Source: a virus. Taken from it: a stretch of DNA of 43,273 bases. The number at the start of each line of letters is the position of its first letter. Position 1 is the stretch's first letter. The position numbers and the translations under genes were made by a program. Of this stretch, positions 8,478 through 41,917 are shown piece after piece. Where the stretch lies: positions 1 through 43,273 of the IMG/VR virus record IMGVR_UViG_3300037189_010516; one strand, given 5' to 3'. The notes beneath the pieces were generated by a model that saw only the letters and a program-made list of their open reading frames with translations, made no database searches and was not told where the DNA came from.

Positions 8478-8489
8478 GAGAAATAATCT

Positions 8490-9350: not shown

Positions 9351-9358
9351 GGAATAAT

Positions 9359-13711: not shown

Positions 13712-13720
13712 AGGTGACTA

Positions 13721-17804: not shown

Positions 17805-17859
17805 GTCACAAAAGCGTCTTAAAGCGTTAGCAAAACAAGATCCATTTATATACAAATGA
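17758..17859 (+). CDS. 33-residue basic micro-protein
   Basis: ATG 17758 to TGA 17857-17859. It begins MKKLLKILMTPWQWYKSQKR and ends PFIYK, and is very basic with an amphipathic N-terminal helix. It bridges the glycosyltransferase and the carbamoyltransferase: it overlaps the former by 47 nt in another frame, and its stop overlaps the carbamoyltransferase ATG as ATGA. The ATGA junction argues that it is translated, since the carbamoyltransferase start has no other Shine-Dalgarno context. A membrane-surface anchor or adaptor role is possible but unproven. Confidence 0.55.
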   Translation: MKKLLKILMTPWQWYKSQKRLKALAKQDPFIYK

Positions 17860-20824: not shown

Positions 20825-21475
20825 TTATGTTTGGGTGTCTTCATCATTAACTGCGTACATTTTTGTGTAAATTTCTTCAAGTGCATTGTCAGGCCAAGAA
20901 GAATTTTTGTAAACATGTTCTTCTAGATATTTAAAATCAAACCTGCCTTGCTCTGTTTTAGCTCGTATAATTTGAGATTCTTCTGGACTAAACGCTGGCA
21001 TCATTATCTCCATACCAACTGGCTGTTCCCCGTATGTAAAACAATTAAAAAATCCAAATGTTTTGAGATTTTTATCTTCATCTATAAAGAAATATTCTGG
21101 ATCCATAGTGACTTTGTATACTTTTTCTTGTCTAAAATCCATGCACATCTGTGTCAGCTGATCTTTCCAATCAGGGCAATACTGATCTAATGTTTCGCCT
21201 CTATCAAGGATGTCTTTACAGAAGTGTCCTCCAAATCTTAGATAGACTCTCCATCCATCTCTGTTTTCTTGTCCAAACTGTGGGCACCATTTGTATTTAG
21301 ATAACGGTCCTGTTACATGATTAAGGTCCCGCACAAAGCATGATCTTACAAATAGTAAAGAGCATGTTGGGCGTTCTACGTATGCTGTGCAAATGTAACT
21401 GTTATCTTTGGCCTTATAAAGATGAAAAATTCCTTCTTTGATAAATTCCCAATTTTCGCTCATCGGTTCTCTCAT
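20825..21475 (-). CDS. kinase-fold-like protein, paralogue 1 of 3
   Basis: 216 residues from ATG 21475 (MREPMSENWEFIKEG), preceded by an ideal GGAGG 4 nt upstream. The longer open frame beyond it overlaps the previous gene and is not needed. The core CPDWKDQLTQMCMDF, then KVYKVTMDPEYFFIDEDKNL and KTFGFFNC aligns with the genes at 28435 and 33560. The spacing looks like a protein-kinase or aminoglycoside-phosphotransferase catalytic loop followed by the DFG strand. The catalytic HxD Asp seems absent (TMDPEYF), so it may be a pseudokinase or a different chemistry. It ends SSWPDNALEEIYTKMY, as paralogue 3 does. It follows a 2OG hydroxylase gene. Confidence 0.55.
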   Translation of the reverse strand: MREPMSENWEFIKEGIFHLYKAKDNSYICTAYVERPTCSLLFVRSCFVRDLNHVTGPLSKYKWCPQFGQENRDGWRVYLRFGGHFCKDILDRGETLDQYCPDWKDQLTQMCMDFRQEKVYKVTMDPEYFFIDEDKNLKTFGFFNCFTYGEQPVGMEIMMPAFSPEESQIIRAKTEQGRFDFKYLEEHVYKNSSWPDNALEEIYTKMYAVNDEDTQT

Positions 21476-22248
21476 ATTACCTCCGTAATTACTAAATGAA
21501 CTCGTGGAGTATCTCCATAGTTTATAACGGTATGTTCTATAGCTGTGGGGAAAAATTGCCAAGCCGTTCCTGCTGGCATGTGCATTTTTACAGTTTCTGA
21601 AGTTGTTTTGAACAACCAATAAACGTTAGAGTTTGTTACTACAGGTATGTGATATCGCACAGGAGTTCTAGAGCTATCAATGTGGAAATTGTATCCTTCT
21701 TTAGAGTTGATCCACATGAATGCGGCTCTTCCTTTAAATGGCTGTCCATATGTAACTTTGTGAAAATCAAATATATCTTGTATTATCTTTTCAAGGTACG
21801 TGCCGTTTAGTTCTTCTAATAACTCTGTATAATCAGCAGGATTCACATCTTGAGCAAATATATGCTCAAATTGTCCTTTGTATTTTTTCCATCTATCCGG
21901 ACCCGTTAGACCCGGCAAATGATTAAGATTCATATCCCATGCTATAGCTTTTATGTCAGGATCTATTTGTTTGTTTTTAAAATCTTCTGTCTTGATAAAA
22001 TCTAAAAAGGTCATATTGGATTGTGAGAACAAAGTTGCTAACCTAGCTGACTCTTTAGCTTCTTCTTCAATGAATTGATTATAATCTAAACCTAAATTAG
22101 AAAACAATTCATAAAAACTTTGTTCTAACAATGCTTGATCAACTGAAACGTCTATAGGAAATAGATAAGGTTTCATAACATCAACTTCTCTGTAAGAGTT
22201 TAGCTGATCAATAGCATCTGCGTTTTGTCTTATTCCGTAGATTGTCAT
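21472..22248 (-). CDS. Asp/Asn beta-hydroxylase-like 2OG oxygenase
   Basis: 258 residues. FHIDSSRTPVRYHIPVVTN (about 189-207) holds the HxD pair and the R and H typical of the aspartyl/asparaginyl hydroxylase family. AWQFFPTAIEHTVINYGDTPRVHLVITEVI at the C-terminus holds the distal histidine (EHTV) and the 2OG arginine (TPRVHLVI). A long N-terminal part of about 150 residues has a helical start and no family match that I recognise. The stop overlaps the next gene by 4 nt, with GGAGG inside the end. The substrate is unknown. Confidence 0.8.
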   Translation of the reverse strand: MTIYGIRQNADAIDQLNSYREVDVMKPYLFPIDVSVDQALLEQSFYELFSNLGLDYNQFIEEEAKESARLATLFSQSNMTFLDFIKTEDFKNKQIDPDIKAIAWDMNLNHLPGLTGPDRWKKYKGQFEHIFAQDVNPADYTELLEELNGTYLEKIIQDIFDFHKVTYGQPFKGRAAFMWINSKEGYNFHIDSSRTPVRYHIPVVTNSNVYWLFKTTSETVKMHMPAGTAWQFFPTAIEHTVINYGDTPRVHLVITEVI

Positions 22249-22249
22249 A

Positions 22250-23404
22250 TTAATATAATTTACTAAAATCTAGTTCGCTAACATCATTAGAATATAATTG
22301 GTATCGAACTGGCGGATGATCTGGTAAGGTCATCTTTTTATTTGTTTCTATATCTCTTCTTATAACTTGATGTAAGAAATTTGTTAGACCGTCGCTTGTA
22401 AAGTTACAATAAGGGCCACTACGCAACTCCTCCATGTGTATATCTGTTTCATCACACCATTGAATTAATCTAAATAATTGCCCATCTATCTTCACCATTA
22501 CATGATATATGTTATCGTCCCAGTTAGCTAACTCGAATGTTTTGTTATGTTTGGCGCACCAATCTTTAGTAATTTTATAAATGTCACTCACGTACATACG
22601 CTCTTGTTCAGGATATCGTCCAATATCGCTTCCGTATCGTATTCTAAACATTACTGGGTTCCAATTACTTGATGTCGTTTCTTCAAGTATATCTTCTAAC
22701 TCGCTAATGCTACTCATTGTGTAACTGATGTAGGCCAATGGCATGCCAAGTGTGTTTGCGTTTTCAATTGCAGTTATTTGTTTATTCCTAATAGTCTTAT
22801 TGTCTAGGTAACTTGGATGATTCAATCCTATGCATAGCCCATATAATCCTGCTTGCTTACAACTTGATAAAAAATCTATATCTGCAAACCTAATACCGTT
22901 AGTCATAACCAATAGCTCGTGCCACTTAAATGTATCTACTATTTGTTTAATTAACAAAATAAAATCTTTATGTAAACTTGCTTCTGCTCCTGCAAGCATT
23001 AATCCTGTTCCAGGACGATACCATTTTGCAATTTGATTGACTATTTCATCTACACTCTTATCAACAATTTTATTATCTGGCATATGATAGCAATGTGGGC
23101 AATCAGCATTGCATTTATCGCTAACTTCAAATAGTACACAGTTAGTTTCAAATTTGCTTTTATCTGGATTTAGCGTAGTTAAAAAATTATAGTCACGCTC
23201 TATCATATGATGACTAACTCCGTGAAGAACACAACTCTTTGATAACCACAGTTGATTATCTTTATGATATGTGTATGCAGGAATGTGTTGATGGCATTGA
23301 TGGCACAAACTTACTGTAGGTGTTAATACTGTACCATCTATATTTGTCAATGCAACATCACAGTTGTTACTTGCAAATTGATTGAATTTGGTTATAACAT
23401 TCAT
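22250..23404 (-). CDS. radical SAM enzyme, Tes/MJ0619-like
   Basis: 384 residues. The 4Fe-4S motif is C98xxxC102xxC105 (KCNADCPHCYH). In front is a separate metal-type knuckle, C34xxC37 plus C58 and H61 (LCHQCHQHIPA, KSCVLHGVS), as in archaeal tetraether-lipid synthase-like (MJ0619 family) radical SAM proteins. LMLAGAEASLHKDF corresponds to the GGEP segment that holds the SAM amino group, with Ala-Gly-Ala-Glu replacing Gly-Gly-Glu-Pro. The protein at 29150 repeats the whole layout. The family attacks inert C-H bonds. The ATG overlaps the upstream hydroxylase stop (ATGA). Confidence 0.85.
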   Translation of the reverse strand: MNVITKFNQFASNNCDVALTNIDGTVLTPTVSLCHQCHQHIPAYTYHKDNQLWLSKSCVLHGVSHHMIERDYNFLTTLNPDKSKFETNCVLFEVSDKCNADCPHCYHMPDNKIVDKSVDEIVNQIAKWYRPGTGLMLAGAEASLHKDFILLIKQIVDTFKWHELLVMTNGIRFADIDFLSSCKQAGLYGLCIGLNHPSYLDNKTIRNKQITAIENANTLGMPLAYISYTMSSISELEDILEETTSSNWNPVMFRIRYGSDIGRYPEQERMYVSDIYKITKDWCAKHNKTFELANWDDNIYHVMVKIDGQLFRLIQWCDETDIHMEELRSGPYCNFTSDGLTNFLHQVIRRDIETNKKMTLPDHPPVRYQLYSNDVSELDFSKLY

Positions 23405-23982
23405 ATTACTAATTCTTTAGTTAGAATATTATCTACAGAGCTTAACGGTACTTTAAAAATTAAATGAGCTCGTTCAGTAGTACCTTTGTTAATAGTCCCA
23501 TGCGGAACAGTAGTGTTTACAAGATAAACGCTACCACATTCTAGTACAACTTCTTCGTCTTCGAATTGAAAATAACTGCTATCATTAGTTTCTATAGGAA
23601 TATGTATCTTAACATGCTCTTCATCATTGTATAGTTCTTTATCAATGTGAAATTCTATTTGCGCACCAGGGCCGTGTGTAGTAATAACCATTTGCTTTGC
23701 GTAAGGGAAAGCGTCTAATAGTTTCTTAGCAAAACCAAACATCAAAGGAGTAGGTGTATCAAATTTATAATTAGATGCTTCTTCGCCGGGCGCATCATAC
23801 GGAAAGCAAGGTTGGGTAGGATCAGCTAACTTAGTTTGCATTGCATAACTGTAACCATTTGGAAAAACCTTAGATCTATATTCCATAGACTGGTAATCTT
23901 TCTTGATTGTCTTGTAAAAAGAAGTCAATTCATCAAAAGAAAATTTAATATTGGACAGTTTTTCAACGTTAAATGTCAGCAT
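23401..23982 (-). CDS. Asp/Asn beta-hydroxylase-like 2OG oxygenase
   Basis: 193 residues from ATG 23982 (MLTFNVEKLSNIKFS). The longer frame to 24078 lies over the promoter and the divergent gene. The Fe(II) HxD is in QIEFHIDKELYN, followed by HIPIETNDSSYFQF. The distal histidine is in TTVPHGTINKG and the 2OG-binding Arg in TTERAHLIFKV. It sits right behind a TATAAATA late box ending 4 nt before the ATG, so the mRNA may be leaderless. It heads the operon that runs through radical SAM, hydroxylase and kinase-like genes to 19339. Confidence 0.82.
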   Translation of the reverse strand: MLTFNVEKLSNIKFSFDELTSFYKTIKKDYQSMEYRSKVFPNGYSYAMQTKLADPTQPCFPYDAPGEEASNYKFDTPTPLMFGFAKKLLDAFPYAKQMVITTHGPGAQIEFHIDKELYNDEEHVKIHIPIETNDSSYFQFEDEEVVLECGSVYLVNTTVPHGTINKGTTERAHLIFKVPLSSVDNILTKELVI

Positions 23983-23986
23983 GAAA

Positions 23987-23994
23987 TATTTATA
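23987..23994 (-). promoter_or_regulatory. late promoter box TATAAATA abutting a start codon
   Basis: A perfect T4 late consensus on the minus strand, followed by TTTC and the ATG at 23982. The same 18-base string (box, TTTC, ATGCTGA) with matching bases occurs at 34893-34911. The box overlaps the divergent plus-strand box by two bases. Confidence 0.8.
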
Positions 23995-24000
23995 TAAGTA
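23993..24000 (+). promoter_or_regulatory. variant late box TATAAGTA for the divergent Rossmann gene
   Basis: TATAAGTA ends 7 nt before ATG 24008. The same octamer, 5 nt before an ATG, occurs at 25818-25825, which supports it as a true variant of the late box. Confidence 0.6.
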
Positions 24001-24007
24001 CTTTACT

Positions 24008-24538
24008 ATGAAAATATTATGCACAGGCAATCCATCTAAGGGCATTGCACAATCTATACATAAATTATATCCAGACACTACCTTTTTATCTAGGTCAAAC
24101 GGATACGATTTAACTACACAAGACGGTATTGATAAATTTAAATCTATGTTGCCCGACTACGATGTGTTTATTAATCATAGTCAACTAACAGGCCAAACAC
24201 AACGCGACTTACTGACTTATGCAAGCGAAGCATGGTCTGAAGGATATGTTATTAATATAGGTAGTGTAATAGAATTTAAACGTTGGGAATGGTTAGAACC
24301 AACTGCCGCAGAAGAAAAAAGGCAACTAAGAGAACTTAGCTTAGAATTAAGCAGTCAGCATTTTAAAACTACTCATCTTATTGTTGGTGGACTGCAAAGC
24401 TGTAACGAAGATCCATTACGCATTCATACAGATCGTGTTGCAGAAACTATTAAATGGATTTTAGAAAATGAAAACCACATACCGTTAATATATGTGGATC
24501 ATGTCAATGACGAATTGATAAAACGTTATCTCAAATAA
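24008..24538 (+). CDS. short NAD(P)-binding Rossmann (SDR-like) protein
   Basis: 176 residues from ATG 24008 (MKILCTGNPSKGIAQSIHKL). The glycine-rich loop TGNPSKGIAQ (6-15) replaces the TGxxxGIG of short-chain dehydrogenases. DYDVFINHSQLTGQTQ corresponds to the NNAG strand, YVINIGSVIEF to the catalytic-Ser strand, and LIVGGLQSC to the later strand. The usual YxxxK catalytic pair is not evident (AAEEKRQLRELS lies where it is expected). It may bind a dinucleotide without standard SDR chemistry. It is a single-gene transcription unit, convergent with the gene at 24526 (13-bp overlap). Confidence 0.65.
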   Translation: MKILCTGNPSKGIAQSIHKLYPDTTFLSRSNGYDLTTQDGIDKFKSMLPDYDVFINHSQLTGQTQRDLLTYASEAWSEGYVINIGSVIEFKRWEWLEPTAAEEKRQLRELSLELSSQHFKTTHLIVGGLQSCNEDPLRIHTDRVAETIKWILENENHIPLIYVDHVNDELIKRYLK

Positions 24539-24858
24539 AGATTATAAAGATCTTTAGTAACTGTTATTTCTTCAGTGTTAACTGATACAGCTATTTTATT
24601 ATATTGATTGTATCTAACTTTAATAGGTTCTTGATAAGCAATAACAGGATCTTTTATATAGTGTTGAAATGCTTCTTTATTTTCAAACATCATTTCACAA
24701 TATTCAGTCATCCTATCATCCGATAATGAAACTTGTAGTGCTATTAGATGTCCAGGGTCAACATGTTCTTCTTCTATATAATCATACATGTCAGCATCGT
24801 ATCTAAAAAACTCAATGTCTTTATTAAGACGCACTGACGTTGTAACTACTTTATACAT
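24526..24858 (-). CDS. hypothetical protein paired with nitroreductase-like gene
   Basis: 110 residues from ATG 24858 (MYKVVTTSVRLNKDIEFF), which overlaps the upstream nitroreductase-like stop by 8 nt. An earlier TTG at 24867 is less likely. The layout is YKVVTTSVRL strand, a helix, LIALQVSLSDDRMTEYCEMMF, then FQHYIKDPVIAYQEPIKVRYN. This resembles a small alpha/beta dimeric domain such as the ABM-like fold, but I cannot confirm it. The function is unknown. Confidence 0.58.
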   Translation of the reverse strand: MYKVVTTSVRLNKDIEFFRYDADMYDYIEEEHVDPGHLIALQVSLSDDRMTEYCEMMFENKEAFQHYIKDPVIAYQEPIKVRYNQYNKIAVSVNTEEITVTKDLYNLYLR

Positions 24859-25780
24859 TCTCTTCAACAGTAACGTAATCTTTAGTTGTTAAAATACAAG
24901 TAACCATCATGTCATCGTTGTAGCGATTTTCAATTCCAACCCAGTTGTGAGGTTTGGTAGGATCTAATGCTTTGCCAATACAGATCCAAGGACGTGGAAC
25001 AAAGTTTTCTTTAGTATAGGTGCCGTACTTGACATGTAGAGTATCTTCTACACGAGCAACACGAGGATCAAACATATTAAAAGCATTACAGTATGCTACC
25101 TGGTAACCTTGAGCCAATGCAGTTAGACCAATTCGAGCATACAAATCGCCCATGTCAAACCAGTAACTTGTATCATATTGCTCAGGCGGTACGCTAATCA
25201 TCATAGGTGTTGTAACCATCTGTGGAGGGCGAATGTGTCCGTTAACATCACCAGCTGATCCCCAATAGATAGCCAATGCCGCTAATTTTTTACGGACATC
25301 TGCATCAGTTACAATGATCTTATATCCTGCACGTTTAGATAAAAACTCATCAATTAAACTGTTAATTTTATCAGTAGTAACTGGATCAACTGCTACTTCT
25401 GAATTAAATGTACGATGTGCATGTTTTAGTTTTTCTTGCTTTTCCTCGCCAACATATTCTTCTAGATCAACACGTTCCATTAGAACTTCAGCGCCATCTG
25501 CTGAGTTCTTCCATGCATACGCAATATTGTTTTCATGTAGGAAGTATCGTAAACTACCAACTGCTAATCCAATATGTTGCCATTTCTCAAAAGTATGCAC
25601 ATGCTCGGGCATAAATGCTTCATTTTCTCTACGGGGATCTAACATTAAAAATTCGTCTGTTAACGTGAATTTAACGCTAATCTTATCAGCAGTTTGGTTA
25701 ATGTCAACAGCATAAAATGTGCGGCCACAACGAACTGGGGCAAGATAGACAAGTTTTTTAACTGTTTTTAATAGGCTCAT
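24851..25780 (-). CDS. nitroreductase-like flavoprotein
   Basis: 309 residues. About 165-290 fits the nitroreductase fold: DVRKKLAALAIYWGSAGD, TTPMMISVPPEQYDTSYW, then GDLYARIGLTALAQGYQVAYCNAFN, which matches the dimer-interface helix and the Gly-rich turn before the C-N strand in phage and bacterial NfsA/BluB-like proteins, and finally PRPWICIGKAL. The N-terminal ~110 residues are extra and have no family match that I recognise. The typical role is FMN-dependent two-electron reduction; the substrate is unknown. GGAG lies 6 nt before ATG 25780, and a GATAAATA late box lies 25 nt upstream, so it has a normal leader, unlike its divergent neighbour. Confidence 0.6.
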   Translation of the reverse strand: MSLLKTVKKLVYLAPVRCGRTFYAVDINQTADKISVKFTLTDEFLMLDPRRENEAFMPEHVHTFEKWQHIGLAVGSLRYFLHENNIAYAWKNSADGAEVLMERVDLEEYVGEEKQEKLKHAHRTFNSEVAVDPVTTDKINSLIDEFLSKRAGYKIIVTDADVRKKLAALAIYWGSAGDVNGHIRPPQMVTTPMMISVPPEQYDTSYWFDMGDLYARIGLTALAQGYQVAYCNAFNMFDPRVARVEDTLHVKYGTYTKENFVPRPWICIGKALDPTKPHNWVGIENRYNDDMMVTCILTTKDYVTVEENV

Positions 25781-25799
25781 ATTGAACTCCGGTAATTTA

Positions 25800-25817
25800 T
25801 AGTGATATTTATCACTA
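25800..25817. repeat. 18-bp perfect inverted repeat inside a divergent promoter
   Basis: TAGTGATATTTATCACTA: 8-bp arms (TAGTGATA/TATCACTA) around a TT centre. The minus-strand late box lies in its core and the plus-strand TATAAGTA begins directly beside it. It could be an operator for a dimeric regulator or a chance symmetry of the AT-rich promoter. Confidence 0.6.
25806..25813 (-). promoter_or_regulatory. late-type box GATAAATA for nitroreductase-like operon
   Basis: GATAAATATC on the minus strand, 25 nt before ATG 25780, with GGAG inside the leader. Confidence 0.6.
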
Positions 25818-25825
25818 TATAAGTA
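25818..25825 (+). promoter_or_regulatory. variant late box TATAAGTA for the hydroxylase at 25831
   Basis: TATAAGTA ends 5 nt before ATG 25831 (GTAGT then ATG). There is no space for a Shine-Dalgarno, so the transcript should be leaderless or have one or two leader bases. Confidence 0.6.
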
Positions 25826-25830
25826 GTAGT

Positions 25831-26484
25831 ATGGACCACAAAGATTACTATGTTTCAGACGCTAAATTCTTAAAACTAGGAATAGATGTTCCTTACGAAT
25901 CTATGCTTAAAGAAGCACAAGCACTAAAACACAGGTTTACAGATCATAGAGGTGGTGAGGATGTACATAAAGGCTGGAAGTCCCTAGCATTATACGGACT
26001 AGGAGAGGATCTGCACGAAAGCTGGCAAGACTATGGATACTCTAGTGCTGTTGAGGCCGCCAAGGATTTTAAATGGACTCCGGCTGCTACAGAATGTCCT
26101 ACTATCATGCATTTTTTGCATAACACGTTTCCTTGTAAGCGATACGGAAGGGTTAGGCTTATGCTTGTAGAAGCAGGCGGTTGGATTGGTCCGCACAGTG
26201 ATACCAAACACAGATTATTAGAAAACATCAATATATCATTAAGCAATCCCAAAGGTTGCATTTGGCGTTGGGAGGACGGTGAGGAACTATTCATGGAACC
26301 TGGGGGCGCCTATGCTATGAATATTAGCTATGAGCATAGCATATACAATCGTAGTACCGAAGATCGATTTCATTTAATTGTAGCAAGACACGATTCTACT
26401 GACGATTGGAAAGCATTAATTGATCAGGCGGCGTCTAATTCTAATGTCAAAGGACATTACATTCAACACGAAATCGCTGTTTAA
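25831..26484 (+). CDS. Asp/Asn beta-hydroxylase-like 2OG oxygenase
   Basis: 217 residues. The core is WIGPHSDTKHRLLENINISL (HxD then R), GCIWRWEDGEELFMEPGGAY, and EHSIYNRSTEDRFHLIVARHD, with the distal H in YEHSI and the 2OG arginine in EDRFHLIV. This is the aspartyl/asparaginyl hydroxylase pattern, and the product is a hydroxylated peptide or small molecule. The N-terminal ~110 residues are variable. It is a single-gene unit, convergent with the 474-residue gene (4-bp overlap). Confidence 0.85.
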   Translation: MDHKDYYVSDAKFLKLGIDVPYESMLKEAQALKHRFTDHRGGEDVHKGWKSLALYGLGEDLHESWQDYGYSSAVEAAKDFKWTPAATECPTIMHFLHNTFPCKRYGRVRLMLVEAGGWIGPHSDTKHRLLENINISLSNPKGCIWRWEDGEELFMEPGGAYAMNISYEHSIYNRSTEDRFHLIVARHDSTDDWKALIDQAASNSNVKGHYIQHEIAV

Positions 26485-27905
26485 CCTAACATCCTAGGAC
26501 TGTGCCAATCAGTACTGTGCCAAGGAGTTTTCTTTAGCAAATTAATATCAGTTAAATCAAAACTACTAATTGGTCCATTTGACACTTGTTGTACAGGATA
26601 GTATCCATCTGCAGATCGTGAAGTCATCATAACATTAATGTTAGGATCTATTTGTTTTAGCTTGTTAATTAATTTGTTTTCGCAAGTTACACGATACTTT
26701 AGACTCTGCGTAGCGGTATAAGGACTGTGTGTAAAAACATCACTTAGATTTAAAAGTGTGCGTTTGTTAGGTTCAATCCAATTAAGATCATATGTTGACA
26801 TGTAATCAATTAAAACATATTCAAACTTTAAAGATTTAATCTTAGCCCATAACTCTTGCCAGTTGTCATGTTTGCTAATAAAACTTTCCCATTCTTTCTT
26901 AGTATATTCTATGTAAGCATCGATGTCGTTGTATGTGCCAACAGGAATTATAGGTAAGTGTGCCCGATAAAATTCAGCGTAGTTAGTACCGTCCCATTCC
27001 TCAACCATAGCTTTCATAAATTGAAGCGTATTGTGATTAATGTCAGTAAAGATGACTTTTGTATTTGGAGTAATTCCTATGCGTTCTAAATAGGTAATCC
27101 AGTAGACTCCAATACCTACAGTAATATATTGTTCTACAGGACCATCAAAGGGAATATGGTCTTTGAACTGATCACTATTCCAACTGGCATAAAAATTATT
27201 GCAAAAGAATTGATTATGATATATGTCGCTCATCATTCTAAGAAAAACATGATCGTGTTCGTAATACAAATATTTCTTGTTGTTACGAATATCTTCCCCT
27301 AGATCTATGATTGTTTTATTGTGTGCTAATGCTGTTGATATAATGTTCCAACCGTGGCATTTCATTGCGTATTCTTTATTAGTAGTTCCGGGCTTAATCC
27401 AAGCCGCTACTTCATGATCGTTGTACAAGCATTCTGTACTGCGTAATGGTTCTGTTTGAATATGTGGAATGTCTTGTTGTTTGCCTATACTAGGAAATCC
27501 TAATTGTTTATAATCTTCTAGCTGTACAATGTAAAACTGATGATGCAATTCATAATAACCATTCTTCCAGTAAGACTGTTCGTTTCTTTCTAATATGTGT
27601 CCTGCAACAAAGAAATCTTGTTTACATATTTTTTCTATAGCCGGAAATATTCTGTCACTTAATCCTAGGCTCATTCCCATTGCAATGACTACGGCATGTG
27701 AGTACTCTTGAGAACTCGCAAAAGTCAATAGTTCATCTTCATCTTTGCCTATAAAAATATCATATCCTTTAGTAGCAAATCTATGTACAAGGAAGTCGCT
27801 AATATTAATTGATACTTCAGTTGCCCAGCCGCTTTGGTATAGATCTCTATTATCTATAATGCAGATTACAATAGGGTTAGTGTTTGTCTGATTGAATACT
27901 ACCAT
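26481..27905 (-). CDS. unknown 474-residue protein with a methyltransferase-like segment
   Basis: 474 residues. The N-terminal half (IVICIIDNRDLYQSGWATEV, then SHAVVIAMGMSLG) looks like a Rossmann or flavodoxin-like strand set. A middle segment, PVEQYITVGIGVYWITYLER (about 250-269), followed by NTKVIFTDINHNTLQFMKAM, resembles motif I (GxGxxW in place of GxGxG) and acidic motif II (FTDIN) of SAM-dependent methyltransferases. The C-terminus is not recognised. No signal peptide or membrane span is seen. It overlaps the preceding GNAT-like gene by 7 nt, so they are coupled. The methyltransferase reading is tentative. Confidence 0.55.
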   Translation of the reverse strand: MVVFNQTNTNPIVICIIDNRDLYQSGWATEVSINISDFLVHRFATKGYDIFIGKDEDELLTFASSQEYSHAVVIAMGMSLGLSDRIFPAIEKICKQDFFVAGHILERNEQSYWKNGYYELHHQFYIVQLEDYKQLGFPSIGKQQDIPHIQTEPLRSTECLYNDHEVAAWIKPGTTNKEYAMKCHGWNIISTALAHNKTIIDLGEDIRNNKKYLYYEHDHVFLRMMSDIYHNQFFCNNFYASWNSDQFKDHIPFDGPVEQYITVGIGVYWITYLERIGITPNTKVIFTDINHNTLQFMKAMVEEWDGTNYAEFYRAHLPIIPVGTYNDIDAYIEYTKKEWESFISKHDNWQELWAKIKSLKFEYVLIDYMSTYDLNWIEPNKRTLLNLSDVFTHSPYTATQSLKYRVTCENKLINKLKQIDPNINVMMTSRSADGYYPVQQVSNGPISSFDLTDINLLKKTPWHSTDWHSPRMLG

Positions 27906-29124: not shown

Positions 29125-29136
29125 ACTGTAATTATC

Positions 29137-29143
29137 ATAAATA
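29137..29143 (+). promoter_or_regulatory. late-type box CATAAATA next to the start of a radical SAM gene
   Basis: ATAAATA (29137-29143) then TTTTCC then ATG 29150. The six-base gap places the expected transcription start at the A of the ATG. Confidence 0.65.
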
Positions 29144-29149
29144 TTTTCC

Positions 29150-32484: not shown

Positions 32485-32485
32485 T

Positions 32486-34899: not shown

Positions 34900-34903
34900 G
34901 AAA

Positions 34904-34911
34904 TATTTATA
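34904..34911 (-). promoter_or_regulatory. late promoter box TATAAATA abutting a start codon
   Basis: A perfect T4 late consensus on the minus strand, then TTTC and ATG 34899, identical in sequence and spacing to the box at 23987. The divergent gene at 34959 has only a TTAAATA (34928-34934) and an AAGGA Shine-Dalgarno. Confidence 0.8.
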
Positions 34912-34958
34912 TGCTACTTTAATGCGGTTAAATATTTCACATATTAAGGAACTCAGCA

Positions 34959-35681
34959 ATGCAACTAGATGATATAGATATTCCATTTAATGGAAATTGG
35001 AACAGTATAGCGATTAGCCTTAGTGGCGGTGCTGATTCTGCATTGTTAGCGTATGTATTATGCGAACAAGCTGAACGTTACGGAGTCAACGTACATGTCA
35101 TTAATCATATTAGAATGTGGAAGACACGCCCTTGGCAACAAGAGGATGCTCGTAAAGTTTATGAATATCTAACAAAGAAATTTTCTAAAGTATCATTCAC
35201 GTTTCATCAAAACTTTATTGCACCAGACATAGAATACGGAAATATTGGGCCTACTATAAAAGACGAGTACGATAAACTGGTCAGTGGAGACAATATACAG
35301 ATAAGAGCATTTGCAGAATTTGTGTGTCACAAACACGATGTTGATGCCTACTACAATGCTGTAACTCGAAACCCTAGAGAAATAGACTTAGGCGGAATGA
35401 AAGAACGAGACATTGAACTAGACAAGACTAATGCACACTTACAATTAATGACTCACATGGGTAGGTTAGTAAGTCATCCTTTTAGATTTGTAGATAAAGG
35501 ATGGATTGTTAGCCAATACAAACAATTAGATATAATGGATCTGTTTAATATTACTCGCAGTTGCGAAGGTGAATTTGACGGATGCGATTACACAAACTAT
35601 TATGCAGGACAACGTGTTCCGGCATGCGGCGAGTGCTTCTGGTGCAAAGAAAGAGCTTGGGCAATTGAACAAAACAAGTAA
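34959..35681 (+). CDS. QueC-like PP-loop ATPase
   Basis: 240 residues. The ATP-pyrophosphatase loop is SLSGGADS (20-27). The C-terminal zinc site is C202 (TRSCEGEF), C223, C226 and C229 (PACGECFWCKERAWAI), the SC...CGxCxxCxxR pattern of 7-cyano-7-deazaguanine synthase QueC. QueC makes preQ0 from 7-carboxy-7-deazaguanine. The middle region differs from typical QueC, and no queD, queE or folE is in the window, so it might be a preQ0 salvage or modification enzyme or a related PP-loop ligase. AAGGA precedes ATG 34959. It leads the operon with three radical SAM-region genes. Confidence 0.78.
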   Translation: MQLDDIDIPFNGNWNSIAISLSGGADSALLAYVLCEQAERYGVNVHVINHIRMWKTRPWQQEDARKVYEYLTKKFSKVSFTFHQNFIAPDIEYGNIGPTIKDEYDKLVSGDNIQIRAFAEFVCHKHDVDAYYNAVTRNPREIDLGGMKERDIELDKTNAHLQLMTHMGRLVSHPFRFVDKGWIVSQYKQLDIMDLFNITRSCEGEFDGCDYTNYYAGQRVPACGECFWCKERAWAIEQNK

Positions 35682-36918
35682 AACATTTTGTATGCATCCT
35701 TTTACAGGATTGGCTACTAGAGAAGATGGGGCTGTTAAAGCCTGCTGTCGTAGCCACCCTGTTGGTTATATACAGGATAGTTCATTAGAAGAAATCTGGA
35801 ATAATAGTACAATGCAACGTATACGCAAGCAGGTGCTCAACGATGACCGTCCTCCGGAGTGCGCTCCGTGCTTTGCATTAGAAGATCAAGGTGTTGAAAG
35901 TCTGCGCCAAAGACATATCAAAGGTGAAATACCAGAAGCACGTATAAATCTATATCCTAACACACCTTTGCAAGAAGTAATGCCATTTGAGTTTCCTACA
36001 ATGGAAATTAAACTCAATAACCTTTGCAATCTTAAATGCCGCATGTGCAATCCAACAGATAGTACAAGTTGGAATGATTGGGAACAAGTAGAAGAGTTTT
36101 ACGATAAAGAAAATAATTTTATTGCAGATAATGTTCGTAAACTTAATCTAGTTAGAAAACCCTACTTAGATAAGTTTGAAGATAATCCTAACTGGTGGGC
36201 AAGTTTTGAAAAGCTATTGCCTTACTTCCGTCGTGTAGAATTTGCTGGTGGTGAACCTTTAATGGACCCTCAACATTTTCGCATACTAGATATGCTTAAA
36301 CCCTACGGACATCAAATAGAATTAAAGTATGCTACTAATGGCACAACATTAGGAATTTCAAAAGGAAGAACTGTACATGAATACTGGCCTCATTTTAGAA
36401 GCGTTGCCGTTAACGTCAGCATTGACGGCCTTGGCGATGTTTACGACTACATTCGTGGTAACAGCAATTGGAGTCAGGTTGTTGCAAATATTAAAGAAAT
36501 ACAAACAATCCCAAACGTTACAAGAATAGTAGGAGCAGTTGCTGTTCAAGTTAGTAATGTATTGATATTAGATAAAATGATAGAATACTTTTTAAACGAG
36601 TTGGGTATTGTATTTTATACCAACATGGTAAACTATCCAAATGTATTGTCAATACAAGTATTACCGCAAAAACTTAAAATGGATGCTATTATAAAACTTG
36701 CAGGTGTTTATAATAGAATAGGAGATTTTGAATTAGTTAAGAAACATCCTATGCTGTTAAACCTTACACAGAATCAAATAATGGGTGTGCTTAACTATCT
36801 AAAAGCAAACGATCAAAGCGACAAGTGGCAAGACTGCGTAGAGTTTAATCGTAGATTAGATACTACTCGTGATCAAAGTTTTATAGACGTAACTCCAGAG
36901 TTTAAAAAATATGTTTAA
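35665..36918 (+). CDS. radical SAM protein with N-terminal twitch/SPASM-like cysteines
   Basis: 417 residues if the TTG at 35665 is the start (the frame reads NKTSKTFCMHPFTGLATRED). It aligns with MSKTFCPLPWIHLATRPN of the gene at 39553, which is why I chose it over an upstream ATG at 35569 inside the QueC-like gene. N-terminal C9, C27, C28, C66 and C69 (FCMHPF, KACCRS, PECAPCF) form an auxiliary cluster site. The radical SAM site is C121xxxC125xxC128 (LCNLKCRMCNP). FAGGEPLMDPQHF is the SAM-binding GGEP. The family acts on peptides or small molecules with an auxiliary Fe-S cluster. It overlaps the QueC-like gene by 17 nt. Confidence 0.82.
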   Translation: MNKTSKTFCMHPFTGLATREDGAVKACCRSHPVGYIQDSSLEEIWNNSTMQRIRKQVLNDDRPPECAPCFALEDQGVESLRQRHIKGEIPEARINLYPNTPLQEVMPFEFPTMEIKLNNLCNLKCRMCNPTDSTSWNDWEQVEEFYDKENNFIADNVRKLNLVRKPYLDKFEDNPNWWASFEKLLPYFRRVEFAGGEPLMDPQHFRILDMLKPYGHQIELKYATNGTTLGISKGRTVHEYWPHFRSVAVNVSIDGLGDVYDYIRGNSNWSQVVANIKEIQTIPNVTRIVGAVAVQVSNVLILDKMIEYFLNELGIVFYTNMVNYPNVLSIQVLPQKLKMDAIIKLAGVYNRIGDFELVKKHPMLLNLTQNQIMGVLNYLKANDQSDKWQDCVEFNRRLDTTRDQSFIDVTPEFKKYV

Positions 36919-37711
36919 TCTAGTATTAACAAACGGACTAGACGATCTTTCTTTAGAGTTTAAATTAAGAGATACTGCTATTTCAAGAAAGTGGTTTGCA
37001 GAGCTTTCTAAAAATTATCCTCTTTACGAAATTGATAGATTTACCAATTGGGGTAAGCAAAACTTTATCGATCAATTAAATGAGCAGATAGATATCATTA
37101 ATTCTTATCAACAAATAATAGATAAGAAAGTTTCAGAAACAACAAATCAACAGGACCTTAACTACCTTCATAAATTCTTTGAAGATCTAAGAGGAGAAGC
37201 ATCTATAGGAACAGAATGGTTCCATGCGGCGCCTGCTAAAGTACAAACTGCTTTAGAAAAATTTAATATATTGATTCACGATTTAGAATCTGAAATTAGG
37301 ACAGGAAACAAACATCCAACATTGGTAGTAACATTTAAAGGAAATCCACGTCTTGCGTTATCAAAAGATGATATGAAGCACTTTACATATAAATGGCAAT
37401 CAGGAACAGTTTATATAAATTACTGTCACGTAGGAAAAACTGTGCTTGACATATATACAAATCGTGACAGTATATCAGAAGCAGTTCGTCCGCAAACACA
37501 CTACTGCGCAGATTTTATGATTAAGTTTGGGCCGTCCTCTAATACTGTATTACATTTTTTAAGATCAGTTATGATAAATGTTTGGTTATTGTTTAAAAAT
37601 TACAATATTGAAAATTATAATATTGGAATGATTCCTGTAGCAGATCTAGTTACGCCAGTAGATAAGAAAACATTAATTAATTTTAACAAGGTTAAATCTG
37701 TAAATGTATAA
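36911..37711 (+). CDS. hypothetical protein between two radical SAM genes
   Basis: 266 residues. It has a helical N-terminal half (KQNFIDQLNEQIDIINSYQQ, then LNYLHKFFEDLRGE), a DPxxAKVQTALEKFNILIHDLE helix, and a beta-rich C-terminal half (LVVTFKGNPRLALSKDD, KWQSGTVYINYCHVGKTVLD). It has no cysteine cluster. Placement with 8-nt overlaps on both sides between radical SAM genes suggests a substrate-binding or partner protein, like the recognition proteins of peptide-modifying systems. No family was recognised. Confidence 0.6.
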   Translation: MFNLVLTNGLDDLSLEFKLRDTAISRKWFAELSKNYPLYEIDRFTNWGKQNFIDQLNEQIDIINSYQQIIDKKVSETTNQQDLNYLHKFFEDLRGEASIGTEWFHAAPAKVQTALEKFNILIHDLESEIRTGNKHPTLVVTFKGNPRLALSKDDMKHFTYKWQSGTVYINYCHVGKTVLDIYTNRDSISEAVRPQTHYCADFMIKFGPSSNTVLHFLRSVMINVWLLFKNYNIENYNIGMIPVADLVTPVDKKTLINFNKVKSVNV

Positions 37712-38618
37712 AGTAGCACATAGGAATAGAGATGATTCTATTCATGTTGAATGGAATCTTGGTAAACGCTGTAACTTTGATTGCAGTTATTGTCCTGCGG
37801 CTATACACGACAACACCAGCGAGCATACAGATATTGAGATACTCAAAGCAACTGTAGACAAGCTGATGACGTTAGGAAAACCAGTTCAGTTAAGTTTTAC
37901 AGGAGGAGAGCCGTGTGTGCATCCAAAGTTTTCAGAATTAGTAATGTATGCCAAACACGTGGGCATACAGAAAATCAGTGTAACTACTAACGGTTCTAGG
38001 AAAGCAGTTTGGTATGAAAATTTACCAGTAGATCAATATGTGTTTAGTATTCATATGGAACATGATCCTATGCGTATATTAAACACAATCGTTAACGTTC
38101 ATATGAACAATCCTAAGATATACTTAGTTGCTCAAATTATGGCGTTACATTCGCATATGAAAACTGTTAAGGTAGTAGCCGATGCTTGCAAGGCACATGG
38201 CATATCCTATAACATACGTAGAATACGATGGACTGAAGGCGATCATAATATATTTGATGACATGCGATATGATGCAGATGACTATAAATGGATACTTGAA
38301 AACTCGTCAACAGTATATGCAAACTGTGTAGTAGATGACGATCACAATCAATTATATCATGCCAACGATATAATCAAATTGCACATGAACAAATATAAAG
38401 ACTGGAAATGTAACGCAGGTCTTGAAAGTCTAATGATTAATTGGGATGGTGAAGTGCATCGTGCTACCTGTAGAGTAGGAGGTAGTCTAGGTAACATTTA
38501 TGAAGGTAGTTTTACTATACCAACCGAACCTATTATATGTACTCGTGACTACTGCACCTGCGCCGCAGATATACCATTAACTAAAGTTTTAGTCAATAAG
38601 GTTTCGGGTGTACAATAA
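37704..38618 (+). CDS. radical SAM enzyme
   Basis: 304 residues. C23xxxC27xxC30 is in KRCNFDCSYCPAAI. FTGGEPCVHPKF is the GGEP strand and SVTTNGSRKAVWYENL follows. The C-terminal part has an auxiliary SPASM-like set: WKCNAGLESLMINWDGEVHR, then TCRVGG, then CTRDYCTCAADIPLTKVL. The gene at 38549 on the other strand has a matching C-terminal set (WKCNVGIDMFYINPTGELSG ... CYCTPETLLTKTL), so the two are paralogues. The two overlap at their 3' ends by 70 bp. Confidence 0.88.
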   Translation: MYKVAHRNRDDSIHVEWNLGKRCNFDCSYCPAAIHDNTSEHTDIEILKATVDKLMTLGKPVQLSFTGGEPCVHPKFSELVMYAKHVGIQKISVTTNGSRKAVWYENLPVDQYVFSIHMEHDPMRILNTIVNVHMNNPKIYLVAQIMALHSHMKTVKVVADACKAHGISYNIRRIRWTEGDHNIFDDMRYDADDYKWILENSSTVYANCVVDDDHNQLYHANDIIKLHMNKYKDWKCNAGLESLMINWDGEVHRATCRVGGSLGNIYEGSFTIPTEPIICTRDYCTCAADIPLTKVLVNKVSGVQ

Positions 38619-39556
38619 CACCCTTGTAGTTTACAAATAGTAGGCTGTATTTTAGGATTAAATGTTGTTTTAAAATCCTGATCGTATATGTTGAACTTAG
38701 TGTCCAAACCATATAACGATTGTCCGCAAGATCCAGATAGTTCACCAGTTGGATTAATATAAAACATATCAATACCTACATTACACTTCCAACCGTAAAA
38801 GTGGTTCCAATCATTTAGTTGTACTTGATTGTGTTTTACCTTTTTACTTTTACCGTTATCAAACTGTACAACACTACGATTAATATTAAAGTTTTTTCGT
38901 TGATTAAACGCATACCATATACTTGGATATCGTTTTATAGAATTAGACAAGAACTCCAATTGCTCAGGAGTATATAAGTTTGCTCCATCTGCTTCCTCAA
39001 TTTTTTGTGTGCCTATGTACCATTTACGTCTGCTGTTTGATTTAAAATAATCAATCATAGACGCACATTCATCCCATGCAAACGGATCCATACATACACT
39101 CACATCTACGTAAACACCTGTGTCGTATAATGTATCTGCAACTAACGTAAAATGGGGAAGATCAATCTGTTTATAATGTGCGGATAGATTTACCTTATCA
39201 AATACTTGTGCGTTCTCTTGCCACCATCGGATTGTTCTGGATCCGTTAGATTGTACACTGGCAATAAAATTGTATCTATCCTTCAGTTGAGAAATAAACT
39301 TATCTAGCTCTGGCCACAATGTTGGTTCGCCGCCAAGTATCTGTAATTCAATTTGATCTTTACCAGATTTTATATACTGATCGAACAGGTGTGAAAAGTT
39401 ATCTACAACTAACTTTAGGTCTTTTGGCCAACTGTATCTTCCTGCATTTGAACCAGGAAAACAATATCTGCATTTATAGTTACAAACATCAGTAGGACTA
39501 TAACTTATTTTTACAAAATTGCTAGGCTGATTTGATACTACAGCTATTGGAATCAT
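38549..39556 (-). CDS. radical SAM enzyme, convergent paralogue
   Basis: 335 residues. C25xxxC29xxC32 is in VCNYKCRYCFPGS. ILGGEPTLWPEL is the GGEP strand. SVQSNGSRTIRWWQEN and SAHYKQIDLPHF follow. The C-terminus carries GWKCNVGIDMFYINPTGELS, SCGQSLYGLD, TICKLQGCYCTPETLLTKTL. It is in an operon with the twitch-type radical SAM gene at 39553 (4-nt overlap). It resembles the gene at 37704 in order of motifs but differs in the middle region, so the substrates may differ. Confidence 0.88.
   Translation of the reverse strand: MIPIAVVSNQPSNFVKISYSPTDVCNYKCRYCFPGSNAGRYSWPKDLKLVVDNFSHLFDQYIKSGKDQIELQILGGEPTLWPELDKFISQLKDRYNFIASVQSNGSRTIRWWQENAQVFDKVNLSAHYKQIDLPHFTLVADTLYDTGVYVDVSVCMDPFAWDECASMIDYFKSNSRRKWYIGTQKIEEADGANLYTPEQLEFLSNSIKRYPSIWYAFNQRKNFNINRSVVQFDNGKSKKVKHNQVQLNDWNHFYGWKCNVGIDMFYINPTGELSGSCGQSLYGLDTKFNIYDQDFKTTFNPKIQPTICKLQGCYCTPETLLTKTLVNGISAAQVQ
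38577..38596. repeat. near-palindrome coding LTKxLVN on both strands
   Basis: TTAACTAAAGTTTTAGTCAA: 16 of 20 bases equal its own reverse complement. The plus strand encodes LTKVLVN (residues 292-298 of the 37704 protein) and the minus strand encodes LTKTLVN (321-327 of the 38549 protein). A weak hairpin is possible in either transcript, with a 2-nt centre and one G-U or one mismatch, but it has no U-tract and does not look like an intrinsic terminator. Confidence 0.8.
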
Positions 39557-40851
39557 AAGTCTTTTAACTCCGGAAACACTTGTCTAAAGTCTGTACCGCG
39601 CTGTTCATCGGTAACAGTTAGATAGTCATACAATAAAGGTAGTTTATTGGACCAATCTTCTGCCATCATATATTGCACTAATCCTTGCCAGCGTTTGTAT
39701 CCATAGGGGTTCTGCATAAATTCTGTATCATTGCTTCTTCTAGAACAGAAGTACTCTATGCTCTTTATTACTTTTGCTTTTAGATGCTGAGGCAGTACTC
39801 TAACATTTAGATAGCTTGGCAAGTATACAAGATGTGTGCCAACAAGTCCTGCGCCATAAGGAGGTAGATTAATCTTTTTAAAGTTTTTACTTTCCTTCCA
39901 ATGCACAAGTTCTGGTACATTCATTACGTTTAATAACTGTACGGCACATGCAATATTAACTGTAATGTTATTAGGTGTATCATCAAGGCGCTCTAAGTTG
40001 GCAACAACATCTGCCCATTTACTAGGGTAGCGTATGTAATCATTGCGTGTACCCACAGCGTCAACACTAAAGTTAAATTTAACTTCTTTGAAATGCTTCC
40101 ATAGTTCAAATAACTTTTCTGGCAATTCTAGGCCGTTGCTGTTGTAACGTAAAATACAAGACTTTGCCGCACCTGTTTCTACCATAAACTCTAATATCTT
40201 ATAGTGCTCGGGTATCAATAATGGTTCGCCGCCTGCAAAGTATAGCTCACGAATATTATATGATTGACTACGCATATCATTTAAGAAACTACCTTTCTTA
40301 TACCACGTATAATCAAAGTCACTATTCCATTGTTGATCTTGTCGCAGTTCAATAGTCTTATACTTAGGATACTGTAGTTTCCATTCCTTGATCCAACTGC
40401 TACTGTCATGCGGGCTACACATAACGCATTTGAGTTGACACAGATTACCTAAGCGTAAATCAAAGTACGGAATGTCTACAGGCAAACTACCATCCTCACC
40501 TGTAGCATCAACAATGGTTGCAACGTCTAAACGCTCGTTCCATACTGCTGATTCCCACTGGCGCTTGCTCACAATACCTTTAGACTCTTCTTCAAAGCAT
40601 TTAGTACAGCTAGGAGGGATCTTGCCTTCTAACATTTGTAAGCGCACGGTCCGCATGTAATTACTATTCCACACTTCAGCAATAGAATGTGTTTGTAGAT
40701 TCATTACTTGCCCATTTTGTTTTACTAACCCAACTTCTTTGCTATCTTCATCGCCTGCACCGCTGGCATTGGCAGTACAACACACACGCACATCGCCGTT
40801 AGGACGAGTCGCTAGATGTATCCACGGTAATGGGCAGAATGTTTTACTCAT
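39553..40851 (-). CDS. radical SAM protein with N-terminal twitch/SPASM-like cysteines
   Basis: 432 residues. It begins MSKTFCPLPWIHLATRPNGD, with C6, C24, C25, C82 and C85 forming an N-terminal auxiliary cluster site (VRVCCTAN, SCTKCF). The radical SAM motif is C138xxxC142xxC145 (LCQLKCVMCS). YFAGGEPLLIPEHY is the GGEP strand, and NFSVDAVGTRNDYIRYPSKW is a family-typical segment. The gene at 35665 is collinear across its length. The product is probably a peptide- or small-molecule-modifying enzyme. The ATG overlaps the previous stop by 8 nt. Confidence 0.88.
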   Translation of the reverse strand: MSKTFCPLPWIHLATRPNGDVRVCCTANASGAGDEDSKEVGLVKQNGQVMNLQTHSIAEVWNSNYMRTVRLQMLEGKIPPSCTKCFEEESKGIVSKRQWESAVWNERLDVATIVDATGEDGSLPVDIPYFDLRLGNLCQLKCVMCSPHDSSSWIKEWKLQYPKYKTIELRQDQQWNSDFDYTWYKKGSFLNDMRSQSYNIRELYFAGGEPLLIPEHYKILEFMVETGAAKSCILRYNSNGLELPEKLFELWKHFKEVKFNFSVDAVGTRNDYIRYPSKWADVVANLERLDDTPNNITVNIACAVQLLNVMNVPELVHWKESKNFKKINLPPYGAGLVGTHLVYLPSYLNVRVLPQHLKAKVIKSIEYFCSRRSNDTEFMQNPYGYKRWQGLVQYMMAEDWSNKLPLLYDYLTVTDEQRGTDFRQVFPELKDL

Positions 40852-41917
40852 TGACTACTTGATCTCTTGATTTTGCAAAGTTACTTGTAGGAGCTCTGCC
40901 ACACATCCTAGCACAAGTTATTAAACTACGTTCATTCCAGTAATTAAACCATAACTGTTGATAGCTATCTGAATCAACAATATCCTTTACTGTATTTGTT
41001 ACAGCATTTAATTTGTCAATACCACCAAATGATTCTACAATATCGTGATACTGTGATAGCATTTCATATCTTACAGAAGCCGCATCATTTTCATCTATGT
41101 ATGTATAAGGAGAACTTGCTATCCAGCAACAAGGAAATACATTTTTAAATGCATCTATATAGATTTCTTTTTGATTTAATGCTTGACAATCAATAACCGA
41201 TTCAGCCATTATCTTTTTATAAGAATTGATTACCTGTTTGTCAATAAATTTCAAGGGAGTATCTGTTGCTGGTTCTATTATATGTGTAACGTTTCCGGAC
41301 TTATCCAATACATCAACTTTAGGTTCTAGCATAAATCTTGAACTATTTTTCATAACAAAAGTTGCAAATCCTAATTCTTTACTCAACTGTCTAGCTTGTT
41401 CTACTTGATCTTGATTGTGTTTGAATCTAATAAAACACCACTCAGCAGTTCCGCCTGCTTCTATAAATGCTTTGGCATTTTTTAAGATAGTATTAAAGTT
41501 AGTACCTATACGATATATGCTATGAGTGTCGTCAAGACCATCTAGAGCAAATACTACATTATGTGTTTTAGGTAATGCTCCTGCTAATTCTTTCCACCAG
41601 CTGACGGGTCTTGCACTTCCGTTAGTGTGTACACGAATATTAAGAGAAGGATTAACTTCAGTAGAATACCTACACATATCAATCAAATCTTTGTTGAGTA
41701 TAGGGTCTCCAAAATTGCCACAAAAGAAAAATCCGTCAAGCTGATTCAGAACTTCTGGACTCATGATAGTTTTGTATTCTTCTAGAGTCCAATCGTTCAA
41801 ACGTATCAACGGATTTTCTAAGCCGCCATTTCGATTCCGCGCACACATAGGACAACTGGCTTGACAGTTATTTGTAATTTCTAAATGCGCTTGCTGAAGC
41901 TGATCAAATTTAAACAC
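40844..41917 (-). CDS. radical SAM enzyme with SPASM-like C-terminus
   Basis: 357 residues. C18xxxC22xxC25 is in NCQASCPMCARN. FFFCGNFGDPILNKDL is the SAM-binding strand (GNFGDP instead of GGEP). VHTNGSARPVSWWKEL and VFALDGLDDTHSIYRIG follow. FPCCW (IDAFKNVFPCCWIASS) and CARMCGRAP near the end are auxiliary cluster ligands. This layout is that of SPASM/twitch radical SAM proteins. It is directly downstream of the APS kinase fusion; they share one base at the stop/start junction (41917). Confidence 0.87.
   Translation of the reverse strand: MFKFDQLQQAHLEITNNCQASCPMCARNRNGGLENPLIRLNDWTLEEYKTIMSPEVLNQLDGFFFCGNFGDPILNKDLIDMCRYSTEVNPSLNIRVHTNGSARPVSWWKELAGALPKTHNVVFALDGLDDTHSIYRIGTNFNTILKNAKAFIEAGGTAEWCFIRFKHNQDQVEQARQLSKELGFATFVMKNSSRFMLEPKVDVLDKSGNVTHIIEPATDTPLKFIDKQVINSYKKIMAESVIDCQALNQKEIYIDAFKNVFPCCWIASSPYTYIDENDAASVRYEMLSQYHDIVESFGGIDKLNAVTNTVKDIVDSDSYQQLWFNYWNERSLITCARMCGRAPTSNFAKSRDQVVNE

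Follow-up and report, generated by a model that had tools for sequence, protein, structure and literature searches.

A study of pelagimyophages reports host recognition clusters (HRCs), some of which have gained radical S-adenosylmethionine (SAM) cassettes (PMC7029224), and cyanophage S-SSM6a carries a cluster of halogenase, carbamoyltransferase and 2-oxoglutarate (2OG)/Fe(II) oxygenase genes predicted to decorate a polysaccharide or to make a metabolite (PMC7824862). Elsewhere, radical SAM genes of aquatic viruses are listed as auxiliary genes, with best-hit readings as heme (ahbD) or pyrroloquinoline quinone (PQQ) genes (PMC9301287, PMC7678222). Here, we analyze a 43,273-base stretch of viral DNA (IMG/VR virus record IMGVR_UViG_3300037189_010516; hereafter the window), in which positions 20825–41917 form a dense block of such enzymes; nothing in the open-access literature searched describes it as a unit. 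It encodes about 20 iron-dependent and other modifying enzymes, several from families found only in viruses so far, which suggests a dedicated pathway of viral chemistry. We tentatively read the block as a tailoring locus of many enzymes, conserved among uncultured jumbo phages of the T4 superfamily and largely specific to viruses, which decorates the virion or the host surface, a reading that in our judgment falls somewhat short of probable.

Enzyme families of the block

Proteins of the window were scanned with Pfam, NCBIfam and PHROGs profiles, and gene starts were assigned mechanically. A second record, of 62,057 bases, matches the entire window with 35 mismatches, and the gene arrangement is therefore unlikely to be an artefact of a single assembly. 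Genes inside 20825–41917 are mostly found in many of the viral loci recovered with one of the block proteins (family F6) as bait, whereas those outside are mostly found in few, which indicates that these coordinates lie close to the true limits of the block. Its genes, with our family numbers, are as follows.

20825–21619, minus strand: F4, protein-kinase fold, third copy (family by blastp; true start probably the ATG at 21475 or 21463)
21472–22248, minus: 2OG/Fe(II) oxygenase, Asp_Arg_Hydrox type (PF05118, E 8.5e-7)
22250–23404, minus: F5, radical SAM with HMPTM-type N-terminal zinc ribbon (PF04055 and PF23545; motif CNADCPHC)
23401–24078, minus: 2OG/Fe(II) oxygenase, Asp_Arg_Hydrox type (PF05118, E 1e-7)
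23951–24538, plus: F11, short Rossmann/SDR-like protein by eye (present in five of the five first relatives)
25831–26484, plus: F19, 2OG/Fe(II) oxygenase, Asp_Arg_Hydrox type (PF05118, E 6.7e-16; HxD..H..R in 38 of 38)
26481–27905, minus: F20, 474 residues, possibly a GT-A-like N-terminal and a class I methyltransferase-like C-terminal domain (AlphaFold2, weak Foldseek matches)
27899–28447, minus: F12, conserved 182-residue protein, possibly GNAT-like (FeeM, E 0.013, below cut-off)
28435–29151, minus: F4, protein-kinase fold lacking the HRD aspartate, first copy (PDB kinases by profile, E 1.3e-5)
29150–30193, plus: F5, radical SAM with HMPTM-type zinc ribbon (PF04055, PF23545)
30190–30990, plus: F6, divergent, apparently virus-only 2OG/Fe(II) oxygenase of 266 residues (AlphaFold2/Foldseek; H176, D178, H232, R245)
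30990–31484, plus: F1, small 2OG/Fe(II) oxygenase, tandem copy 1 (HxD..H in 61 of 61)
31481–31981, plus: F1, small 2OG/Fe(II) oxygenase, tandem copy 2 (HxD..H motif)
31969–32484, plus: F1, small 2OG/Fe(II) oxygenase, tandem copy 3 (HxD..H motif)
32486–33079, plus: sulfotransferase, accessory rather than core (PF03567, E 4.5e-8; in four loci)
33076–33567, minus: F1, small 2OG/Fe(II) oxygenase, fourth copy (HxD..H motif)
33560–34237, minus: F4, protein-kinase fold lacking the HRD aspartate, second copy (profile and alignment)
34234–34986, minus: F13, 2OG/Fe(II) oxygenase (H110, D112, H154 and R164 in 59 of 59)
34959–35681, plus: F7, PP-loop ATPase resembling QueC, with SGGxDS and a Cys cluster at the C-terminal end (PF06508 match below cut-off, E 4.7e-4; alignment)
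35569–36918, plus: F2, radical SAM, N_Twi_rSAM (NF033640, 332.8 bits, cut-off 170)
36911–37711, plus: uncharacterised protein, not core
37704–38618, plus: F3, radical SAM, nearest the STM4011 family, below cut-off (profile)
38549–39556, minus: F3, radical SAM (profile)
39553–40851, minus: F2, radical SAM, N_Twi_rSAM (NF033640, 424.9 bits, cut-off 170)
40844–41917, minus: F8, radical SAM (PF04055)

Seven loci match PF04055, and the CxxxCxxC motif is intact in all seven, in line with an earlier note on this DNA that had counted seven radical SAM enzymes between 22 and 42 kb. The listed start of the F2 gene at 35569–36918 overlaps the upstream gene by 113 nt, and the ATG at 35692 may be the likelier start. 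The same note's count of eleven 2OG/Fe(II) oxygenases in the window was also upheld, the two weakest being those at 2.8 and 5.0 kb, where only weak profile matches were obtained. The remaining nine lie at 21472–34986 and comprise three PF05118 proteins, F6, four F1 proteins and one F13 protein. Only the PF05118 members of this set were named by Pfam, and an HxD...H triad conserved in relatives decided the other six. This triad is kept in every relative of F1, F6, F13 and F19 that was compared (38–61 sequences), and Pfam is the sole basis for the PF05118 proteins at 21472–22248 and 23401–24078. Every PDB match listed at E ≤ 0.001 for the AlphaFold2 model of F6 (pLDDT 85) is a 2OG oxygenase or a double-stranded β-helix (DSBH) protein; the Foldseek TM-scores are low (~0.3), which marks F6 as a divergent branch, and a profile search of the PDB with F6 returned nothing useful. 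The earlier note had named profile searches as a possible refutation, and in them most of the proteins fell into the families it had proposed.

The kinase-like genes of that note were confirmed with respect to fold (profile E 1.3e-5) but not with respect to the catalytic residue. Among the 19 F4 sequences compared, the position aligned to the HRD catalytic aspartate of active protein kinases is Ser or Ala, and hence the F4 proteins are probably not ordinary kinases. F7 scores below both QueC cut-offs (20.2 bits against 22 for PF06508; 16.8 against 150.3 for TIGR00364). F12 was recovered in 52 viral loci and had no match in a profile search of the PDB. A similar search with F20 gave nothing useful, and its AlphaFold2 model (pLDDT 92) has weak Foldseek matches, the best with E 1e-3. 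Among the 27 junctions at 20825–42720, exact 4-nt overlaps occur seven times, twice between convergent genes, and 1-nt overlaps twice, which bears out the coupled junctions noticed previously.

Conservation and clustering in viral relatives

Five first relatives were fetched with the HMPTM-type radical SAM protein F5 as bait; they carry 7–12 radical SAM genes each and have most of families F1–F15 in common. F15, a radical SAM family of the relatives, has a weak B12-binding match, and one contig, G004, encodes a B12-binding radical SAM protein. With F6 as bait, 438 relatives were found in IMG/VR viral contigs, so the F6 family is widespread. Eighty of these were kept, and neighborhood counts use the 60 of them that span 16 kb or more. 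Every one has F4; F12 occurs in 53, F1 and F2 in 48 each, F5 in 47 and F15 in 43.

Gene adjacency was assessed by shuffling family labels within loci. Adjacent F12–F4 pairs number 41, against a shuffle mean of 12.0 and a maximum of 21; F5–F6 pairs number 23 against a mean of 8.5, and F19–F20 pairs 19 against 3.0. The same gene combinations thus recur, as had been proposed from the window. About 60 related viral loci keep the block together, with constant neighbors, although gene order and copy number differ among them; a scattering of the genes in related phages, which the earlier note had named as a second possible refutation, was therefore not observed. In the 364-kb contig G006, all core hits except one F2 and one weak F14 fall at 240–264 kb, and nine of ten radical SAM genes lie inside this single 24-kb locus, an arrangement matched by none of 100,000 random placements. 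In a further case, 13 of 17 radical SAM genes lie within 26 kb, again with 0 of 100,000 placements as clustered. G008 (221 kb) likewise holds the block as a single locus, at 150–179 kb.

Phages that carry the block

The large terminase of G006 shares 52–53% identity with its counterparts in Pseudomonas phage PA5oct and Sinorhizobium phage Phosso, which we take to be T4-superfamily jumbo phages (record lengths 287 and 469 kb). G006 combines this related terminase with a genome above 200 kb, as expected of a T4-superfamily jumbo phage. The nearest cultured kin of the large relatives are accordingly phages of this type, the window itself being placed by block similarity only. The phage origin assumed in the earlier note is right for the relatives, given their terminase and tail fibers.

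None of the four core families searched for in isolated phages (F4, F5, F6 and F7) was matched in 50,697 phage records, and N_Twi_rSAM has distant matches only, in four of these records. No relative of F6 was found in 84,980 bacterial and archaeal genomes. Cellular matches of N_Twi_rSAM are mostly from Bdellovibrionota. A cellular version of the cluster was considered and rejected: in Bdellovibrionota, Ancylomarina and Beijerinckia, N_Twi_rSAM genes are mostly separate from the remaining block, and two cellular neighborhoods examined gave no hint of a substrate. We know of no established function for N_Twi_rSAM. Four contigs (L213, L214, L215 and L254) from metagenome-assembled genomes assigned to Acidimicrobiaceae, Chloroflexi, Gammaproteobacteria and Neomarinimicrobiota resemble misbinned phage, with either dense arrays of N_Twi/radical SAM genes or an F16–F30–F17 module.

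G006 also carries a 28-tRNA array and a tmRNA. Arrays of 15–34 tRNA genes were observed near the block in L171 (G006, 232–238 kb), L188, L200, L202, L205 and L210; the tmRNA is permuted in G006 and G008, and G006 has a tRNA with anticodon cta.

Neighboring genes, Fe-S supply and tail fibers

Outside the block, the window contains the following.

2761–3369, minus strand: weak 2OG/Fe(II) oxygenase (PF13640, E 3.7e-5, below cut-off)
4954–5679, minus: weak 2OG/Fe(II) oxygenase (phrog_81, E 2.3e-5)
5603–5911, minus: A-type Fe-S carrier (PF01521, E 7e-15)
5908–7164, minus: flavin-dependent halogenase, Trp_halogenase (PF04820, E 1.4e-29)
7225–7551, plus: A-type Fe-S carrier (PF01521, E 3.9e-14)
7563–19346, plus: second module (F16 proteins, an S8 protease/hydrolase fusion, F30, two F17 glycosyltransferase-like proteins, two F10 proteins and a carbamoyltransferase)
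42874–43272, minus: F14, methyltransferase-like by eye, truncated by the window end (complete in L017, 9896–10489)

The halogenase and two Fe-S carriers placed at 5.6–7.6 kb by the earlier note correspond to the PF04820 match and the two PF01521 matches. The PF04820 model fits the halogenase best over the C-terminal part, and halogenase relatives occur near the block in 21 loci. Other accessory genes near the block in relatives encode a class III aminotransferase, a full-length Trp halogenase, an AdoMet decarboxylase, a methyltransferase, more 2OG proteins and a StrB-like amidinotransferase (E 9e-19); sulfotransferase, carbamoyltransferase and glycosyltransferase-like genes are added by the window. 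Several of these accessory assignments are single-sequence matches. A recurrent accessory protein, U1, which by eye looks dependent on pyridoxal phosphate, had no Pfam or PDB match and was not used as evidence.

In all seven searched contigs of at least 127 kb (G006–G012), a gene for IscU (PF01592, E ~1e-54) adjoins one for an A-type Fe-S carrier; the window has two A-type carriers and no IscU. These genes are consistent with the phage supplying clusters for its many Fe-S enzymes. Of the 52 loci with F12, 24 have a tail-fiber gene of the Mtd_N type no more than 8 kb away, in several cases directly adjoining F12, and just one such gene was found in the 585 kb of G006 and G008 together. The window contains tail proteins along with its glycosyltransferase-like genes.

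The second module, F16–F30–F17–F10 with extra N_Twi_rSAM genes, is a separate locus in G006 and G008 and adjoins the block in the window; F16 and F30 have no match in cultured phages. Within it, the 1450-residue protein at 9359–13711 joins subtilase (S8) and BD-FAE hydrolase domains to a putative Ig domain and a region resembling F16, and a 525-residue subtilase relative is encoded at 679–2256 of G001. Beyond the other edge of the block, the gene at 41917–42720 encodes an APS-kinase-like and nucleotidyltransferase-like (NMN adenylyltransferase-like) fusion, which among the contigs searched has a relative in G010 only. In G003 (L021, 4487–6073), a GTP cyclohydrolase gene stands beside a QueE-like radical SAM gene about 10 kb from the block.

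A model for surface tailoring and its alternatives

Radical SAM and 2OG enzymes both target unactivated C–H bonds. Based on the enzyme families, a simple model would have the block act as one pathway, in which several radical SAM enzymes of the N-twitch and HMPTM-like types (joined in relatives by B12-binding ones), several 2OG hydroxylases, the QueC-like ATPase and the kinase-fold proteins probably work sequentially on one substrate class. Unactivated C–H positions would be oxidised, methylated or linked, while phage IscU and A-type carriers would replenish the Fe-S clusters. The product would most likely be an unusual amino-acid- or sugar-derived group attached to a surface-exposed molecule, either the receptor-binding fibers of the virion or the host envelope during infection, with variants set by the swappable halogenase, amidinotransferase, aminotransferase, sulfotransferase, carbamoyltransferase and glycosyltransferases. 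The core is constant and its decorations change, and nearly half of the loci (24 of 52) have Mtd_N fibers close by; we take this to suggest that the product is exposed on a surface and under diversifying pressure. The glycosyltransferase-like and carbamoyltransferase genes fit a surface target as well, and the radical SAM cassettes of pelagimyophage HRCs offer a precedent (PMC7029224).

Several observations weigh against surface tailoring. No substrate was identified, the functions of F11, F12, F14 and F20 are uncertain, and the block includes no complete nucleotide-sugar pathway. The amino-group enzymes are variable and lie outside the core. A link to Mtd_N tail fibers is missing in 28 of 52 loci, as well as in G006 and G008. 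Moreover, loci were picked by similarity to block genes, and their frequencies therefore describe one lineage rather than independent samples; the viral contigs are all linear records and may be fragments.

One alternative is that the block makes a soluble specialised metabolite, a free guanidino, amino-acid- or sugar-derived small molecule active in infection, for instance against competitors. The aminotransferase, AdoMet decarboxylase, halogenase, methyltransferase and StrB-like amidinotransferase that recur near the block in relatives would suit such a product, which is also one of the two readings given for the smaller S-SSM6a cluster (PMC7824862). However, no scaffold synthase (nonribosomal peptide synthetase, polyketide synthase or terpene synthase) or exporter was seen, the amino-chemistry genes lie outside the conserved core, and the tail-fiber neighbors would be left unexplained; we regard this alternative as unlikely. 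We judge equally unlikely that the enzymes modify a virion protein, most simply the neighboring tail fiber, by side-chain hydroxylation, methylation, epimerisation or cross-linking. Such a role would fit an enzyme mix resembling protein-acting tailoring sets (PF05118 hydroxylases, F15, the B12-binding radical SAM protein of G004), the Mtd_N fiber directly at F12 in several loci, and the weak GT-A-like and methyltransferase matches of F20, but the leader-binding PqqD domain was not found in the 15 viral records searched, and about half of the loci lack such a fiber beside the block.

Hypermodification of nucleic acid, either phage DNA or tRNA, appears quite improbable. The QueC-like ATPase inside the block, the GTP cyclohydrolase and QueE-like protein of G003 and the tRNA arrays near the block in several contigs point in this direction; yet F7 falls under the QueC cut-off, the G003 genes are confined to one contig and lie roughly 10 kb away from the block, the accessory genes do not suit, and no base modification known to us involves so many or such varied enzymes. 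No base-modifying entry enzyme (TET/JBP or a thymidylate-synthase homolog) was among the family matches obtained, which included no dedicated profile search.

The earlier note had proposed a modification pathway for a host surface, a virion protein or a peptide. The pathway idea gains from conservation of the block as a unit, and a surface target is plausible, but a peptide is disfavored. Maturation of a short ribosomal peptide (a ribosomally synthesized and post-translationally modified peptide, RiPP) by radical SAM and 2OG enzymes would employ the enzyme classes of proteusin-like maturation, in which 2OG enzymes and radical SAM enzymes, B12-type ones among them, act on unactivated carbons. 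The PqqD domain is absent from all 15 viral records searched, PF05402 being the only RiPP recognition element type covered, and no recurrent unexplained small open reading frame (ORF) occurs in 85 loci/contigs, although very divergent or very short precursors could escape. Recurrent small ORFs there include the AdoMet decarboxylase, a 140-residue protein, Fe-S proteins and shadow ORFs, and the remote small-ORF precursor candidate mentioned earlier is backed by no conserved small ORF. Without a PqqD domain or a conserved small ORF, a RiPP is very improbable. Finally, rearranged gene order and differing copy numbers might suggest a hypervariable island of unrelated auxiliary enzymes kept for separate reasons, which is hardly credible given the constant core, gene pairs recurring far above shuffles and the single locus in large contigs.

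If the block does encode one conserved pathway, it would represent a new kind of phage chemistry open to testing, and heme or PQQ readings of such genes in aquatic viruses may be wrong in part. More generally, the block gives enzymologists many new families of radical SAM and 2OG proteins to study. As a separate observation, the 261 'ahbD' auxiliary genes listed for Baltic viruses (PMC9301287) may partly be N_Twi_rSAM genes of the block type.

Comparison with known systems

The F2 proteins at 35569–36918 and 39553–40851 score far above the curated cut-off of NF033640 (N_Twi_rSAM), whose cellular members recovered here are mostly from Bdellovibrionota and mostly lack the remaining block. F7 shares with QueC an SGGxDS PP-loop and a C-terminal Cys cluster, but stays below the Pfam and NCBIfam cut-offs. 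In contrast to proteusin-type maturation, the block has no detected precursor peptide or PqqD domain.

The 10-gene S-SSM6a cluster resembles window positions 2.8–19.3 kb in its halogenase, carbamoyltransferase and 2OG hydroxylases, and differs in comprising 8–12 genes with no radical SAM gene listed and without a description of the F1–F20 core (PMC7824862). The pelagimyophage HRCs are similar as a T4-like variable region with tail fibers, glycosyltransferases and radical SAM cassettes; the three gene types occur together here as well, the likeness being one of gene content. In the consulted part of that study, however, radical SAM genes are mentioned briefly, and 2OG, radical SAM and kinase-fold families are nowhere presented as a conserved set (PMC7029224). 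The block could be a jumbo-phage pathway of its own kind, in which conserved enzyme families, several of them virus-only, make a heavily C–H-functionalised modification without cellular counterpart and swappable accessories give each phage its chemical variant, a possibility that we consider doubtful but serious. On this comparison, the block belongs among phage-encoded tailoring clusters, with a real chance of being a pathway of its own.

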